Assembly (NCBI GenBank): GCA_019638705.1
Contig: JAHBTI010000003.1
Location: forward strand, 124,001-188,000
DNA length: 64,000 bases
Reading direction: 5' to 3'
Source: Bacteroidota bacterium
GTDB lineage: Bacteria; Bacteroidota; Bacteroidia; B-17B0; Aurantibacillaceae
The translations under genes and the position numbers were made by a program. The notes beneath the pieces were generated by a model. That model saw nothing but the letters and a program-made list of their open reading frames with translations. It had not been told where the DNA came from and did no database searches. Below, piece after piece: positions 3,282 to 37,621 of this stretch; the stretch's first letter is position 1; each line of letters opens with the position of its first letter.

Positions 3282-5378
3282 ATGAAGCCCATCTTGTCTT
3301 GCATATTATTTTTTACTGTTTTGGGTTTAAACGCCCAAAACGAAAATACCAAATGGTATTTTGGTAATCATGCTGCTTTGGATTTTATGACTAATCCGCC
3401 TACTATTTTGAATAATAGTGCTATGAACCAATTGGAAGGCTGTGCAAGCATAGCCGACGGCGCAGGTAATTTATTGTTTTATACGGACGGAGTAACGGTA
3501 TATAACCAATTAAATGCTGTAATGGCAAACGGCACGGGATTATTTGGCAGTGTCACAAGTTCTCAATCTGCCTTAATTGTTAAGCAACCTAACAGTTCTA
3601 ATCTCTACTATATTTTTACAACAATGACTCAATGGCAAAGCGTAGCAAATGTTTGGGCAGAGGCGTATTATTCTGTAGTAGATATGAGTTTAGCAGCAGG
3701 TATGGGTTCTGTTACCATAAAAAATATGCCATTATATGCCGGTCAATGTACTGAACATCTCCATGCTGCCAAACACGCAAATGGTATAGATTATTGGATA
3801 ATGATACACGAGCGTAACACAAATAATTTCAGAGCCTATCTTCTTAGCCCAACAGGAGTAAATACTGCGGCAGTTGTTTCTTCGGTAGGAAATGCCTATG
3901 CCGGTACCGGTGAGCAAGGTTGTATGAAATTTTCTCCTACGGGACAAAAATTGGGGGTAGCTTCAGGTGGAAGCTTTAATGGAACCGGTTTTGCGGCGTT
4001 GTACGACTTTAATAAAAATACGGGCACAGTCAGCAATGCTCTTACATTGGGACAAATTGATTTAGCTTATGGTTGCGAGTTTTCTCCCGATGGAAAAAAA
4101 TTTTATTGTGCGTCTCAATATAATAATATAGTTCAATGGGATTTGAGTGCAAGTTCTGATGCAGCCGTTATTTCTTCTTCTGTCATTATTGCCTCCACCT
4201 CCGGAAATGGTTTTGGCAGTATGCAATTAGCTCCTAATGGAAAAATATATGTTGCAAATGTTGGTACTCAATCTATCAGCATTATTCATAAGCCCAATGT
4301 TGCCGGTGCAGGGTGTAATTTTTCATATATAGGACAGCCTGTTAATGCTTTAAATATCAACACTAATCAATTGGCGTATTCTACCTATGGTTTACCAAAT
4401 ATGTTATCATCACCATGTTTTGTTTCGTTTTCTTTATTAAACGGCAGTGTTACATGCAATAGTGCAGCAACAGGCAGCGCAGCAGTTATTAGTACAACAG
4501 GAAACTTAACGTATCTGTGGAGTAATGGAACAACTACATATAACACACAGCAGGTAAACAATCTGAGTGCAGGTATATGGAGTATTACCGTTACAGATAC
4601 TACAAGTTGTTCTACACACAGCGTGTTTGCAATTTCTGAACTACCGCCTCCCACATTCACACCAAGCATTTCAAGTAGTAATTCTGTTATTTGTCCAAAT
4701 GATACAGTTGTTTTAACTGCAAACGGTGCAAACAGCTATATATGGAGCAATGGTGCTCACACTTCAAGTATTTCTGTTAGTCCTTTAGGTACTACACAGT
4801 ATTATGTTTCAACCACAGACTTAAACGGTTGCATAAGTAACAGTTCTGTTGTTACTATTAATGTGTTGCCTGCGCCTATCCTTAGCATAAGCGGCTCTAC
4901 TATATATTGCAGCGCACAAATAGTTACACTCACCGCTTCGGGTGCATACAATTATTATTGGCAATGGGGTGGTACTCATGCCCATGCTTCCTCATCAAGC
5001 ATTGTTTTAAAACAAAATATAACTACACAATATACCATTACAGGCACAAACAAAATTGGCTGCAAAAGCACGGAGGTGGTTACGGTTACTATTGGCTGTG
5101 TAGGAAGTGATGAGTTAGGAGTGATGAATGATGAGTTGAGGGTGTATCCGAACCCGACAAGCGAAATGTTAAATGTTGAAAACCCACTAACCTCCAAAGG
5201 GGGAACAGTTGAAATTTATGTGTATGACATTTTAGGAAATACAGTCATTAGCTCCGCTGAACTTACGTTTCATAATTCTACATTTAACATTCATCATTCC
5301 ATTGATGTGCGTGAGCTAAAAAGCGGAATGTATTTTATAAAAATCGGTAACCGAACGCAGAAATTTGTGAAAGAATAA
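3282..5378 (+). CDS. T9SS type A-sorted secreted protein with beta-propeller and Ig-like domains
   Basis: A 698-residue exported protein. It has a signal peptide (ending LNAQ at about residue 19), a WD40-like propeller region of about 380 residues (WYFGNHAALDF, then FSPTGQKLG and FSPDGKKFY repeats), two or three SprB/Ig-like modules with YLWSNG and YIWSNG motifs, and a type A sorting domain with VYPNPTSE. T9SS would carry it across the outer membrane and attach or release it at the surface. The frame is open back to 3126 over the preceding gene, but ATG 3282 directly begins the signal peptide and is chosen. The substrate or ligand is unknown. Confidence 0.75.
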   Translation: MKPILSCILFFTVLGLNAQNENTKWYFGNHAALDFMTNPPTILNNSAMNQLEGCASIADGAGNLLFYTDGVTVYNQLNAVMANGTGLFGSVTSSQSALIVKQPNSSNLYYIFTTMTQWQSVANVWAEAYYSVVDMSLAAGMGSVTIKNMPLYAGQCTEHLHAAKHANGIDYWIMIHERNTNNFRAYLLSPTGVNTAAVVSSVGNAYAGTGEQGCMKFSPTGQKLGVASGGSFNGTGFAALYDFNKNTGTVSNALTLGQIDLAYGCEFSPDGKKFYCASQYNNIVQWDLSASSDAAVISSSVIIASTSGNGFGSMQLAPNGKIYVANVGTQSISIIHKPNVAGAGCNFSYIGQPVNALNINTNQLAYSTYGLPNMLSSPCFVSFSLLNGSVTCNSAATGSAAVISTTGNLTYLWSNGTTTYNTQQVNNLSAGIWSITVTDTTSCSTHSVFAISELPPPTFTPSISSSNSVICPNDTVVLTANGANSYIWSNGAHTSSISVSPLGTTQYYVSTTDLNGCISNSSVVTINVLPAPILSISGSTIYCSAQIVTLTASGAYNYYWQWGGTHAHASSSSIVLKQNITTQYTITGTNKIGCKSTEVVTVTIGCVGSDELGVMNDELRVYPNPTSEMLNVENPLTSKGGTVEIYVYDILGNTVISSAELTFHNSTFNIHHSIDVRELKSGMYFIKIGNRTQKFVKE

Positions 5379-32667: not shown

Positions 32668-33630
32668 GTGGCAGCGACAACACAAGAACTTATCATGAAA
32701 TCTTTCCAAATTCACAATGGAAACACGGCTATTGTACTTAAACAGAAAGTTGAAATGATTGCTTCGCATTACGGAAGTACATCAGCCTTTTTGAAAGCAA
32801 CACGCAAAGATTTTGATAAAATTGTTTTCAAAATAGATGATAAAAAATTCAAGTTATCAGACAACGAATTCCAAAAAATTCAAGCCTTACAAAAAAGTGG
32901 ATTGATTGATGCTAAACTTTCTGTTGAAGATAATTTTATAAAGATTTTAACCACTCAATTTGTTCAAAGACAATTGGAAATGATTGACAAGTTAGAACTT
33001 GAAACATTAAATGTAAATCCAATTTTAGCAGGGGCTTTAAATCTTAATAACGAAACAGACCTTATACGTTATTACGCTTATCAAGCTATTTCACGGAGTA
33101 TGGTTACTTCCGTAGGTTTTCTTGTCCAAAATTTATTGTTATACGCAAGCAACTCTGTTTTTGATGGAAAATATAATGAATTGGGAATAGCAACTAAATG
33201 GGATTTGGTTGTTGAAAAAGGAAAACAACCGAAAGCATTTTTAGAAATAAAAAGTGGAACAAATGATTTAAATAAATCTCAAATACATCATTTTGAAAAA
33301 GAAATAAAACAAATAGAAAAACAAGGTTTCAAAGCATTTATTGGTGAAACATACGGAAAACGAGAAGATAAAACCGTTACCCACGGTTTATATAAAATGT
33401 ACCTGCCAAATTGGGAAAAACGTACACTTATTGGAAAAGAACTTTGGGAATTTATAAGTGGCAAGAAAAATTATCACGAAAAATTAATTGAAACACTTTT
33501 CAAAACTTCAAAAGAGCTTTTAGCTGATGAAACATTCATCAAAAAAATTGAAGCGAAAATAAAACCGCTTACAGCGGATTTTAAAAAGCAATATAAGTCG
33601 TACAAAAACTTTTTGAAATCGCTATGGTAA
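32668..33630 (+). CDS. Type II restriction endonuclease, PD-(D/E)XK type
   Basis: A 320-residue protein (GTG start; ATG 32695 is an alternative). The catalytic motif is TKWDLVV...AFLEIKSG, giving Asp179, Glu193 and Lys195 of PD-(D/E)XK. It lies directly before, and overlaps by 7 bases, a cytosine-5 methyltransferase gene, so it is the cognate nuclease. The recognition sequence cannot be inferred here. The N-terminal 100 residues (SHYGSTSAFLKATRKDFDK) may serve in target recognition. Confidence 0.8.
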   Translation: MAATTQELIMKSFQIHNGNTAIVLKQKVEMIASHYGSTSAFLKATRKDFDKIVFKIDDKKFKLSDNEFQKIQALQKSGLIDAKLSVEDNFIKILTTQFVQRQLEMIDKLELETLNVNPILAGALNLNNETDLIRYYAYQAISRSMVTSVGFLVQNLLLYASNSVFDGKYNELGIATKWDLVVEKGKQPKAFLEIKSGTNDLNKSQIHHFEKEIKQIEKQGFKAFIGETYGKREDKTVTHGLYKMYLPNWEKRTLIGKELWEFISGKKNYHEKLIETLFKTSKELLADETFIKKIEAKIKPLTADFKKQYKSYKNFLKSLW

Positions 33631-34841
33631 ACAGCAACTCAAAATACAATGTAGTATCTCTGTTTTCGGGGGCTATGGGCTTAGACCTTGGACTTGAAAA
33701 AGCGGGATTGAACACATCTGTTTGTGTTGAAATGAATAAACTTGCTTGCCAAACAATTCGTGAAAACACAAACATTCCCGTAATTGAGGGCGACATATCA
33801 CAAATTTCAACAGAAGAAATTTTACAAACTGCCAACCTAAAAAAAGAAGATGTTTTTATGGTAGTTGGCGGACCGCCTTGTCAGGCATTTAGCACCGCAG
33901 GGAAAAGACTTTCGTTGCAAGATTTGAGAGGAAATGTGATAATGAATTATGTTAGAGTTGTTGAAGAAATTGCACCACCCTATTTTATTCTTGAAAATGT
34001 TCGCGGTATTCTTTCTACCCCAATGAACGCTGTTCCAAAGGAGTATGAAGAAGAATACGGAAACATAACAACTATTCCCGGTAGTGTAGTTTATTTTTTG
34101 TGGAATGAATTTAAAAAATTAGGTTACGATGTTAGTTTCACTTTGTTTAATAGTGCAAACTATGGCGTTCCACAAATGAGAGAGCGCGTTATTATGTTTG
34201 GAAGTAAAAATGGAAGAATACCGTTGCCTTCGCCAACTCATACAGAAACAGGAATAGAAACAGGAAAAAAATGGGTAACCATTGCCGAAGTATTTGAAGG
34301 ACTTGGAAAACAAGAACAATATTGTGAACTCTCGGAAAAAATGAAACGTTTTGTCGGAATGTTAAAAGAAGGCGAAAATTGGACACATTTACCAAAAGAA
34401 TTTCACAAAGAAGCAATGGGGAAATCACTTGAGTTGAACGGTGGTAAAACAGGTTTTTATAGACGACTTTCATTTAATAAACCTTCGCCAACTTTACTAA
34501 CAAGTCCTGTTATGAATGCAACATTACTTGCACACCCAACGGAACTTCGTTCATTGTCAATCCAAGAATACGCCCGCATACAACAATTCCCTGATGATTG
34601 GAAACTGCAAGGAAAACTGACAGACATTTTTAAACAAATTGGTAATGCTGTTCCAACAGGTTTAGGTTATGTTGCAGGAAAAACAATTTTAGACTTTCAC
34701 AACGGAAACTTTGACCCACAACGAGAAAAAATAAACACCATTCCTTATTCACGCTACAACGGTTGTTCAGACTTTGAGTTTATTCCAATGTTTAAAAATC
34801 AATTACAAAAAAATAAACAACAGGAGTTTAACTTCATATAA
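33624..34841 (+). CDS. DNA (cytosine-5-)-methyltransferase, type II
   Basis: A 405-residue C5 methyltransferase with all main motifs: I (VVSLFSGAMGLDLGLE), IV with the catalytic Cys86 (VGGPPCQAFSTAGKR), VI (ILENVRG), VIII (QMRERVIMFG), IX (RSLSIQEYARIQQFPDDW) and X (FKQIGNAVPTGLG). It protects the host DNA from the upstream nuclease. The variable target-recognition region lies between motifs VIII and IX (about residues 205-285). The pair is AT-rich relative to its neighbours, consistent with transfer. Confidence 0.93.
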   Translation: MVNSNSKYNVVSLFSGAMGLDLGLEKAGLNTSVCVEMNKLACQTIRENTNIPVIEGDISQISTEEILQTANLKKEDVFMVVGGPPCQAFSTAGKRLSLQDLRGNVIMNYVRVVEEIAPPYFILENVRGILSTPMNAVPKEYEEEYGNITTIPGSVVYFLWNEFKKLGYDVSFTLFNSANYGVPQMRERVIMFGSKNGRIPLPSPTHTETGIETGKKWVTIAEVFEGLGKQEQYCELSEKMKRFVGMLKEGENWTHLPKEFHKEAMGKSLELNGGKTGFYRRLSFNKPSPTLLTSPVMNATLLAHPTELRSLSIQEYARIQQFPDDWKLQGKLTDIFKQIGNAVPTGLGYVAGKTILDFHNGNFDPQREKINTIPYSRYNGCSDFEFIPMFKNQLQKNKQQEFNFI

Positions 34842-34911: not shown

Positions 34912-36321
34912 CTAAAAAATCTTCTCAGGATTTAAAATACAATTCGCGTCAAATACCTTTTTAATGTTGCGCATTAAATCCAATTGATGTGGCGGAAACA
35001 CAATCGGCAAATATGGTTTTTGAACCAAACCAACGCCGTGTTCTCCGCTGATTGTGCCTCCTAAGGCTTTACACAATTCAAAAATTTCTGTAATGCCTTT
35101 CGGTAAATCGTTTTGCCAAACGCTGTCGGGCAAATTGCCTTTAATAATATTAACGTGCAAATTTCCGTCACCCGCATGACCGTAGCAAACAGATTTGAAG
35201 CCGTATTTTTTTCCAATCTCTTTTACACCGCGCAACAATTTCGGTAATTCTGCACGAGGTACAACCGTATCTTCTTCTTTGTACACGCTGTTACTTTTCA
35301 CTGACTCCCCTACTTTACGACGAATTTTCCACAAAGCATTTTTTTGCTCCGCACTGTCGGCAAACAAAATTTCGTCGCAACCGTGATTTTGCATAACGGT
35401 ACTAATGATTTCGCAATCGCTCATCAGCACATCTAAATTATTTCCGTCCACTTCCACCAACAACAAGGCTTGCCATTCGGGTTTAATTTCAAAATTCACT
35501 TCGCCCGCGTATTTCATGCTCCAGTCAATGGCATCGCGTTCCATAAATTCCATAGCACTCGGAATGATGCCCTCTCTGAAAACCGCGCCAACAGCTTCAC
35601 ACGCCTGCTCCGCACTTTTAAATGGAATTAACATCAGCAAATCATGCTTAGGCAATGGAATTAATTTGAATACAATTTTTGTAACAATGCCCAACGTTCC
35701 CTCGCTGCCAATCATTAAATGCGTGAGGTTATAGCCTGTTGAATATTTCAGGGTGTTTGCACCTGTCCAAATAATTTCGCCGTTGGCAAGCACCACTTCT
35801 AAGTTTAAAACATAATCGCGCGTTGTGCCGTATTTCACGGCTTTTGGTCCGCCGCTGCTATGCGCAATATTTCCACCCAAACTGCAACTGCCCCAACTTG
35901 CGGGGTCGGGCGGATAAAACAAACCGAGTTTTTTTACTTCTTCCTGAAAAATATAATTAATCACACCCGGCTCAACGGTGGCTTGTAAATTACGTTCGTC
36001 AATGTTTAAAATTTTGTTGAATTTTTCCATGCTTAACAATACGCCGCCTTTTACAGGCAATGCGCCGCCGCTTAAACCTGTTCCTGCCCCGCGCGTAGTT
36101 AAAGGAATTTTATTGTCGTTACATAATTTTGCAATGGCAGAAATTTGCTCCACCGTTTGCGGTTTCACAATCACATCAGCCAAAAAAATAAAATCTTCGG
36201 TATGGTCTTGTCCGTATTTTTCAAGCTGTTCTTTGTCCGAACTGATGTTTGCGTTCCCGACAACCACTTCCAGTTCTTTAAAAATTATTGACGTTACCTT
36301 GTTATAATTATCCGTATTCAT
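34912..36321 (-). CDS. FAD-linked oxidase, GlcD-type
   Basis: A 469-residue vanillyl-alcohol-oxidase-fold flavoprotein. The FAD-binding PCMH domain shows TTRGAGTGLSGGALPVKGG and PDPASWGSCSLGGNIAHSSGG; the C-terminal half has CYGHAGDGNLHVNII and GTISGEHGVGL. Close relatives are glycolate oxidase subunit GlcD and D-lactate dehydrogenase. No GlcE or GlcF gene is next to it. It probably oxidises a 2-hydroxy acid and passes electrons to the respiratory chain. Confidence 0.88.
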   Translation of the reverse strand: MNTDNYNKVTSIIFKELEVVVGNANISSDKEQLEKYGQDHTEDFIFLADVIVKPQTVEQISAIAKLCNDNKIPLTTRGAGTGLSGGALPVKGGVLLSMEKFNKILNIDERNLQATVEPGVINYIFQEEVKKLGLFYPPDPASWGSCSLGGNIAHSSGGPKAVKYGTTRDYVLNLEVVLANGEIIWTGANTLKYSTGYNLTHLMIGSEGTLGIVTKIVFKLIPLPKHDLLMLIPFKSAEQACEAVGAVFREGIIPSAMEFMERDAIDWSMKYAGEVNFEIKPEWQALLLVEVDGNNLDVLMSDCEIISTVMQNHGCDEILFADSAEQKNALWKIRRKVGESVKSNSVYKEEDTVVPRAELPKLLRGVKEIGKKYGFKSVCYGHAGDGNLHVNIIKGNLPDSVWQNDLPKGITEIFELCKALGGTISGEHGVGLVQKPYLPIVFPPHQLDLMRNIKKVFDANCILNPEKIF

Positions 36322-36360: not shown

Positions 36361-36384
36361 AATTTAACCACATAGAACACATAG
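36361..36384 (+). repeat. Left inverted repeat of the GxxExxY cassette
   Basis: AATTTAACCACATAG followed by AACACATAG. The heptamer ACATAG recurs at 36840-36862 and, in inverse form, in the right arm. Confidence 0.65.
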
Positions 36385-36393
36385 TTTTCTACA

Positions 36394-36822
36394 ATGGGAA
36401 TGACAAATAATTTGACTAAAAAATATCTTGATGATTTGACTTACAATGTTGTTGGTGCAGCTATTGAAGTACATAAAACAATGGGCAAGGGTTTATTGGA
36501 AAGTGTGTATCATCAATGTATGTTGGTGGAGCTTGAACATAGAAACATAAATTTTTCCACAGAGTTAAAAATCCCTGCATATTACAAAAACAAAGAATTA
36601 AACATTGATTTCAGGTGTGATTTGTTTATTGAAAATTGTTTGGTGCTTGAGTTAAAAGCTGCAACAGAAATGAACCCTCTGTTTGAAGCGCAACTTCTTA
36701 CTTACATGAAACTCTTAAAAGCACCCAAAGGCATTTTAATTAATTTTAGTTGCGAAAATATTTTTGCCGAAGGACAAAAAACTTATGTAAACGAATATTA
36801 CAGAAATCTCAACAACTTTTGA
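36394..36822 (+). CDS. GxxExxY protein, PD-(D/E)XK nuclease-like
   Basis: A 142-residue protein of the GxxExxY family, with the name-giving motif GLLESVY (residues 33-39) in MGKGLLESVYHQCMLVELEHR. A PD-(D/E)XK-like core follows: Asp76 in FRCDLFIEN and Glu86-x-Lys88 in LVLELKA, and later AQLLTYMKL. This family is widespread, often in several copies per genome, and its function is unknown; nuclease activity is inferred from the fold. The gene fills most of an inverted-repeat element. Confidence 0.85.
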   Translation: MGMTNNLTKKYLDDLTYNVVGAAIEVHKTMGKGLLESVYHQCMLVELEHRNINFSTELKIPAYYKNKELNIDFRCDLFIENCLVLELKAATEMNPLFEAQLLTYMKLLKAPKGILINFSCENIFAEGQKTYVNEYYRNLNNF

Positions 36823-36947
36823 TTTTATTTTTTCAAACACATAGATACATAGTTTGCATAGAAAAGATTTCATACAAAAAAGGAACACAGAGAAATGTCG
36901 CTTTGCGACACTATGTGAACCTAAAAACAGTACAATAACTATGAAAC

Positions 36948-36970
36948 CTATGTACCTATGTGGTTAAATT
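36948..36970 (-). repeat. Right inverted repeat of the GxxExxY cassette
   Basis: The reverse complement reads AATTTAACCACATAGGTACATAG, equal to the left arm over the first 15 bases and similar beyond. The TatD start codon is at 36974. Confidence 0.65.
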
Positions 36971-36973
36971 AAT

Positions 36974-37621
36974 ATGTTCATCAACGTTCACACACATTCT
37001 CAACTTTACGATGCCAAGATTGAATTGGTAAACCTTGCCATTGATGCCACCGACAAGCCGAATTATTATTCTTACGGTTTGCACCCTTGCCACATTAACA
37101 AAGAAAGCTGTTACGATGTGTTGGAACGTTTGGAAATTATAGCGACAGAAAAACGTTGCCTTGCCATTGGTAAATGTGGTTTGGATAAATTGGCGGAAAC
37201 GGATTTTGATTTGCAGCAGGAAATTTTTGTGGAACAAATTAAAATTGCCAACCGCATAAAAAAACCTTTAATCGTTTATTGCGTAAAGGCGTTTAACGAA
37301 CTGATGAATTGTTTGCGACTGAACGATAACGAAATGCCTGTGATTATCCAAGGCTATAACCACAGCGAAAATATTGCGCAAGTGCTGATGAGCGAAAATT
37401 GTTTGTTTTCATTCGGCAAAGCCCTGTTGGGTTATGAGAGTAACGCTGCGAGAACATTGATAAACGTTGGTCGTAAAAACCTTTTTTTAGAAACAGATGA
37501 GGCGGATATTTCCATAAAATACATTTACAAAAAAGCAGCAGAATTATTGGGCATTGACGAAAACATTTTGCAAGCGCAATTACAAAGTAATTTTGAAAGC
37601 GTTTTTAAATTAAAATTATAG
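36974..37621 (+). CDS. TatD-family protein with degenerate metal site
   Basis: A 215-residue TatD-type (amidohydrolase-like) protein. It keeps the HTH motif (His6, His8) and the ETD motif (Asp175). Three other ligands of active TatD nucleases are changed: GECGLD is GKCGLD (Lys67), the His of IVHC is Tyr102, and the His of HGF is Gln126. DNase or metal-dependent hydrolase activity is therefore doubtful. Its start lies directly at the right end of the GxxExxY element, so its native promoter may have been displaced. Confidence 0.75.
   Translation: MFINVHTHSQLYDAKIELVNLAIDATDKPNYYSYGLHPCHINKESCYDVLERLEIIATEKRCLAIGKCGLDKLAETDFDLQQEIFVEQIKIANRIKKPLIVYCVKAFNELMNCLRLNDNEMPVIIQGYNHSENIAQVLMSENCLFSFGKALLGYESNAARTLINVGRKNLFLETDEADISIKYIYKKAAELLGIDENILQAQLQSNFESVFKLKL

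Follow-up and report, generated by a model that had tools for sequence, protein, structure and literature searches.

GxxExxY nuclease genes framed by inverted heptamer arrays: a candidate two-part mobile element with gene-less copies

INTRODUCTION

In the window (the whole stretch of 64,000 nucleotides that was analysed) a GxxExxY gene lies between inverted repeats, next to a TatD gene. Does this arrangement represent a small mobile unit, with a nuclease-like protein that may act on the repeats as REP-associated proteins do? Such was the original prediction. The GxxExxY nucleases form a large family that owes its name to a motif alone; end repeats specific for the cognate protein would give the family a testable role. 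In the mainly open-access literature searched, the name receives only passing mentions, in two papers; an earlier description elsewhere is possible.

RESULTS AND DISCUSSION

The unit in the window

The locus has the following features; 'gene-less copies' are the dispersed elements of the source genome described in the section after next.

34912..36321, minus strand: FAD-linked oxidase (PF01565/PF02913), upstream flank and site marker, divergent from the GxxExxY gene
36366..36965, plus strand: whole unit, AACC...GGTT, 600 bp, bounded by an inverted repeat, with ends matching both ends of gene-less copies L002-L030
36366..36384, plus strand: left arm AACCACATAGAACACATAG, two heptamers, equal to the 'right-type' end of the gene-less copies
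36394..36822, plus strand: GxxExxY gene, 142 aa, PD-(D/E)XK nuclease by PF13366, TIGR04256, conserved columns, AlphaFold2 and Foldseek
36835..36965, no strand assigned: module of gene-less type behind the gene, with inward arm AAACACATAGATACATAGTTTGCATAG, internal hairpin TGTCGCTTTGCGACA and outer arm, by order and sequences as in the gene-less copies and by single-stranded DNA folding
36948..36965, minus strand: right arm, reading inward AACCACATAGGTACATAG
36974..37621, plus strand: TatD-family hydrolase (PF01026), downstream flank and site marker; the orthologous junction occurs with and without the unit in congeners

The inverted repeat is perfect over its outer 15 bases (AATTTAACCACATAG at 36361-36375 and CTATGTGGTTAAATT at 36956-36970) and, with one indel allowed, runs inward to CACATAG/TACATAG, thus covering 23-24 bases, exactly as originally described. 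When the two 200-bp flanks were shuffled 2000 times with dinucleotides preserved, a match of 15 bases never appeared (the shuffle maximum was 14), which rules out a chance inverted repeat. The claim that the unit stops 3 bases before the TatD gene is correct for the repeat (ATG at 36974); the ends of the gene-less copies in the genome define the element proper as AACC...GGTT (36366-36965), the outer AATTT/AAATT being flank. Hairpins built of the same heptamers had been described behind the gene, and region 36835-36965, with its extra heptamers and central hairpin, is indeed predicted to fold as one long single-stranded hairpin (z -6.2). A search for known RNA families gave no Rfam match.

We also saw, at 32668-34841, a C5 DNA methyltransferase gene (33624-34841) located 1.5 kb from the unit; by the ORF list only, the ORF directly ahead of it resembles a restriction partner.

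The GxxExxY protein

The protein encoded in the window matched TIGR04256 (E 4e-38, 130.3 bits; cut-off 35) and PF13366 (E 1.6e-36, 125.7 bits; cut-off 22). Its GxxExxY motif, G33-E36-Y39, is intact; in the family alignments E36, D76, E86-x-K88 and Q100-xxx-Y104 are invariant or nearly so. The AlphaFold2 model (pLDDT 93.5) was compared by Foldseek with solved structures; the best match was Cas4 SSO0001 (4ic1, E 2.8e-4), with lambda-exonuclease-like enzymes as weaker hits, and a profile search found the 4ic1 chain weakly as well (E 0.74). As modelled, the fold is closest to the Cas4/RecB nucleases, with the active site intact. The four-cysteine Fe-S set of Cas4 is missing; among the cysteines only C42 is nearly invariant.

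Nucleases similar to Cas4 tend toward end-directed exonucleases and perform no obvious DNA transposition, a point that counts against a mobile unit. SSO0001 itself is a 5'-3' exonuclease acting on single-stranded DNA (PMC3466216); activity of the GxxExxY protein on ends or hairpins is therefore as plausible as duplex cutting. No known transposase (DDE, serine, tyrosine or HUH) was found in the unit, where the PF13366 gene is the only sizeable one, and PADLOC and PHROGs gave no match to an anti-phage defence or phage family.

Gene-less copies in the source genome

The source genome (3.22 Mb) carries one GxxExxY gene. The pattern AACCACATAGNNNACATAG, with up to two mismatches, had 35 matches in this genome versus 3 for the reversed pattern; a variable-gap version had 58 matches versus 0. 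Thirteen complete gene-less copies, 59-134 bp long, could be aligned. Most of them have asymmetric ends, one of which reads AACCACATAG-GN-ACATAG-TTTGNATAG and the other AACCACATAG-AA-CACATAG; their interior contains a hairpin like TGTCGCTTTGCGACA and, as a third unit, GTTTCACATAG. The unit of the window is made of both ends and the inner module of these copies with the gene in between; this is the relation usual for a full-length element and its deletion derivatives. The copies have the properties of MITEs: they are short, non-coding and dispersed, with terminal inverted repeats common to the gene-carrying unit. A consistent target-site duplication was seen neither at the 13 aligned copies nor at two empty sites (described below), and this counts against the mobile-unit model.

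Some of the CACATAG copies (L027, L030 and L025) contain or abut CACAGAG-type arrays, with nested arms in L027 and L030. These arrays look like the trace of an earlier family, as if heptamer families had replaced one another in this genome. A literature search with the heptamer strings found no match.

Frames around GxxExxY genes across phyla

Of 150 related genomes, 110 have GxxExxY genes, with 1-20 matches each; scanning GTDB yielded 80 named loci spread over many phyla. Frames were scored by local alignment of one 250-bp flank with the reverse complement of the other. Scores of at least 12 were observed for 56% of 166 GxxExxY genes (some of these loci are orthologous, hence not independent), versus 5.7% of 523 other ORFs from the same loci and 2.4% of random intervals; at a threshold of at least 16 the respective values were 37%, 0.8% and 0%. 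A separate count of the commonest flank 7-mer agrees with the frame score (at least five copies in 42% versus 5.4%). The check proposed at the outset, inspection of GxxExxY flanks for inverted ends and empty sites, thus produced frames across phyla and empty sites, but not a frame at every locus; about 44% of the loci lack one by this simple score, which counts against the mobile-unit model.

The arms consist of tandem words of about 7 bases, constant within a unit and differing between units, often following an ACC or AACC tip; CACATAG, CACAGAG, CGCAGAG, CGCAAAG, CACTAAG, CATTAAG, CATAAAAG, CACTAATT and ACAGGAT are among the words observed. Framed genes (score of at least 12) occur in Bacteroidota, Ignavibacteriota, Chlorobiota, Acidobacteriota, Planctomycetota, Verrucomicrobiota, Chloroflexota, Cloacimonadota, Hydrogenedentota and Pseudomonadota, and in one Methanosarcinales archaeon; some of these cases are MAG contigs, with a phylum that depends on binning. 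In Bacteroides finegoldii the gene comes directly after radA and is clearly flanked by two arms of CACAGAG type. A recently gained copy, L239, has no left arm, and this also counts against a mobile unit.

At three loci (L184, L179 and L156) 10-12 copies of one 7-mer are crowded within 300 bp on each side of the gene, which suggests local amplification of gene-less copies. Genome G086 has a second GxxExxY gene (L238, about 4000-4340) without clear arms; when an empty site was sought in the near-identical neighbour G051, no homologous site was found. A Sphingomonas parapaucimobilis megaplasmid (L274) has a GxxExxY gene within a core cluster of fatty-acid genes, flanked by fabD and fabG.

Protein type and heptamer type vary together

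If the protein acts on the repeats, heptamer and protein should covary; such covariation was observed, and the original suggestion of a REP-associated-like protein that may act on its repeats is supported at the sequence level. In 93 framed loci, protein identity correlated with k-mer similarity of the arms (Mantel r 0.39, pairs above 80% identity left out; the permutation maximum was 0.12 in 2000 permutations and 0.13 within GC classes). For nearest protein neighbours with non-syntenic flanks, the repeat unit was identical in 43% of cases (11% expected at random) and differed by at most one base in 78% (43% expected at random). When unit labels were mapped on a maximum-likelihood tree of the protein (67 rows), they changed 24 times versus 39.5 times when shuffled, and none of 200 shuffles went as low as 24. 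All eight CACATAG loci on this tree fall into one clade (99/90), which includes an Ignavibacteriota contig along with several Bacteroidota lineages. Spacers between heptamers vary, therefore the heptamer itself seems to be what is kept. In a sister-contrast scan for specificity residues the outcome was dominated by few loci. One should bear in mind that unit and protein can covary through joint inheritance, with no direct recognition.

Repeat abundance follows the gene as well. Three repeat patterns had 729, 138 and 129 matches in the 150 genomes, where reversed controls had hardly any; the average was 8.84 repeats per genome when a GxxExxY gene was present versus 0.60 when it was not (p 2e-6; within family only, p 1.3e-4). 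Repeats of CATTAAG type were present in 8 of 9 genomes with CATTAAG-type GxxExxY flanks versus 1 of 20 with other types (Fisher p 2e-5). Halpernia humi, a culturable species with multiple copies, has 20 CATTAAG matches. Genome G012 (98% complete) counts against the mobile-unit model: it has 12 exact CACATAG array matches and no detected GxxExxY gene; its arrays may be orphan copies left after gene loss or a sign that the gene was missed in assembly.

One could suppose that the heptamer repeats are spread by other machinery, with GxxExxY genes being cargo caught between two repeats. Many repeats of the source genome are located far from any GxxExxY gene, G012 has repeats and no detected gene, and this enzyme class is not among the known transposases, all of which would fit. 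Cargo, however, would vary, yet other ORFs of the same loci are rarely framed; the heptamer tracks the protein clade, and the CATAAAAG repeats, three in each of two near-identical genomes, all occur at the GxxExxY gene. We consider this explanation unlikely, though it is the strongest of the rivals to a unit mobilised by its own protein.

Gain, loss and genomic context

At the junction of the FAD-linked oxidase and TatD genes, the GxxExxY gene is present in the source genome and four congeners (G006, G019, G026 and G037); in many other genomes the flanking genes are adjacent with no GxxExxY gene between them. Comparison of G021 with G019 (90% identity) showed presence/absence at the TatD site, with spacers too diverged for base-exact joints. 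In a second genus, genome G046 has units of 464 bp and 612 bp that are both missing at the same sites in its sister G052 (flank identity 95-98%, with 5 and 15 bp between the aligned flanks at the empty sites). In the joints of these two empty sites we saw no duplication, nor did the joints have an exact point in common. G062 and G065 likewise lack the second unit at that site, thus a gain in G046 is the simplest interpretation; the first unit is present in G065, thus it may have been lost from G052.

For the five genes at the TatD site, nine pairwise dN/dS values were in the range 0.07-0.14 and one was 0.23; because of the high dS these are rough values. As the gene is common to five species and dN/dS is mostly about 0.1, it must have been maintained for a long time. 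The empty sites and gene-less copies speak for mobility, as originally suggested, but the TatD-site unit is old and under purifying selection rather than a recent insertion. RAYTs are likewise kept functional in place over long times (PMC8049555).

No GxxExxY match was found in 50,697 phage records; among 72,556 plasmids only 8 carry the gene, all typed as non-mobilizable and several of them very large. Phage or plasmid cargo was ruled out by these counts.

A randomly oriented insert is expected to have the direction of its neighbours in half of the cases. We observed that GxxExxY genes are co-directional with co-directional neighbours in 98 of 108 cases, while ordinary ORFs are so in 337 of 408. 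Dependence of the genes on host read-through transcription is a likely reason for the bias.

The orientation bias (98 versus 10) would also agree with the paired arrays being operators or chromosome-structuring sites, bound by the GxxExxY or another protein, with the gene situated among its own operators. Predicted sites of a global regulator have been described in Geobacter metallireducens as paired opposite-strand tandem repeats with the consensus TCTCCGTS[Y], whose reverse complement resembles CACGGAGA (PMC2700814). Nevertheless, ordinary genes show a similar bias (337 versus 71), a regulator would not need the invariant D, ExK and Q/Y catalytic residues, and both the transposon-like common interior of the gene-less copies and presence/absence at orthologous sites speak against it; we find this explanation less likely again than passive cargo. 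Still more improbable is a free-standing gene of homing-endonuclease type, which would rely on double-strand-break repair and reach no site other than the allelic empty one, with arms that protect or mark its own cut site. A gene for a nuclease alone, a site that is filled in one sister species and empty in another, and the lack of a visible target duplication are what such a gene would show; allelic homing leaves unexplained the gene-less copies and the genes at many unrelated sites. Finally, a purely local coincidence, by chance or as a feature of the TatD promoter, might be suggested by the single GxxExxY gene of the source genome, but it is refuted by the shuffles, by TatD sites that are empty and have no repeat, by dozens of copies elsewhere in the genome and by the same frame around the gene in other phyla.

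A probable two-part system

We regard it as probable that the unit represents a mobile or replicating DNA system with two parts, of which it is one copy, organised like REPIN/RAYT and driven by an unrelated PD-(D/E)XK nuclease. This reading builds on the following observations: genes and arms are associated, the heptamer varies with the protein, gene-less copies have the ends of the unit, units are polymorphic for presence and absence, and the gene is under purifying selection. The first part would be the GxxExxY gene encoding a small Cas4/RecB-like nuclease; the second would be the ends, which form inverted arms, each with an AACC tip followed by two to four heptamers in tandem. The protein may recognise its own heptamer array and cut at or near the arms, either as duplex or as hairpins formed during replication; host repair might then move or copy the unit into A/T-rich intergenic sites with no regular target duplication. 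Units with internal deletions, which at 59-134 bp consist of the arms and a hairpin, could be moved in trans as non-autonomous copies.

The GxxExxY family thus looks like the engine of a widespread and little-recognised mobile element with gene-less copies scattered in the genome. One could go further and speculate that it is a new class of transposition engine, in which a single-domain Cas4-like PD-(D/E)XK nuclease alone, with host repair, mobilises DNA bounded by specifically recognised heptamer arrays, the array code being readable from the protein and changing with it, from Bacteroidota to archaea; this we offer tentatively, as possible rather than probable. If the nuclease alone drives movement, this would be a mobile element without any known recombinase. 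The link to GxxExxY would explain why heptamer repeats of this class are common in the intergenic DNA of bacteria, and it would provide numerous natural pairs of protein and DNA from which a recognition code could be worked out.

Comparison with known systems

Similar to the nucleases of the Cas4/RecB/lambda-exonuclease group, its best structural match, the GxxExxY protein has the D, ExK and QxxxY motif; unlike Cas4, it is only 142 aa long, has no Fe-S cysteine set, is encoded outside CRISPR loci and is framed by repeats. Like IS-derived MITEs, the gene-less copies are internal deletions that keep both ends; in contrast to them, there is no DDE, serine or tyrosine recombinase, no target-site duplication was seen and the ends are heptamer arrays.

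The Geobacter metallireducens sites are also multicopy opposite-strand pairs of tandem 7-8-mers at variable distance, with a class 2 consensus resembling CACGGAG; in 2009 they were read as IHF/HU or regulator sites, and in the text consulted no link to a GxxExxY gene is drawn (PMC2700814). Both of their classes, GTTGCTYN (class 1) and TCTCCGTS[Y] (class 2), resemble arms seen here (CGCAACG of L147 and CACGGAG).

The closest parallel is REPIN/RAYT (the TnpA-REP 'REPtron'), where one gene is accompanied by dispersed short intergenic elements, inverted pairs that form hairpins (PMC3116915, PMC8266576, PMC8049555). In both systems non-autonomous copies outnumber the gene, the repeat type co-evolves with the protein, and the gene is maintained by selection and hardly occurs on plasmids or in phages; correlation of repeat abundance with gene presence and of repeat type with protein group was found here too. 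On the other hand, the enzyme is a PD-(D/E)XK nuclease (PF13366 only) and not the HUH/Y1 transposase TnpA-REP; the arms are tandem heptamers with an AACC tip and not palindromic REPs with a GTAG tip; and the GxxExxY gene, of which a genome has 1-20 copies and several heptamer types, has a frame of its own and undergoes gain or loss. As enzyme and repeat structure both differ, the GxxExxY unit is REPIN/RAYT-like in its organisation and not a member of that family.
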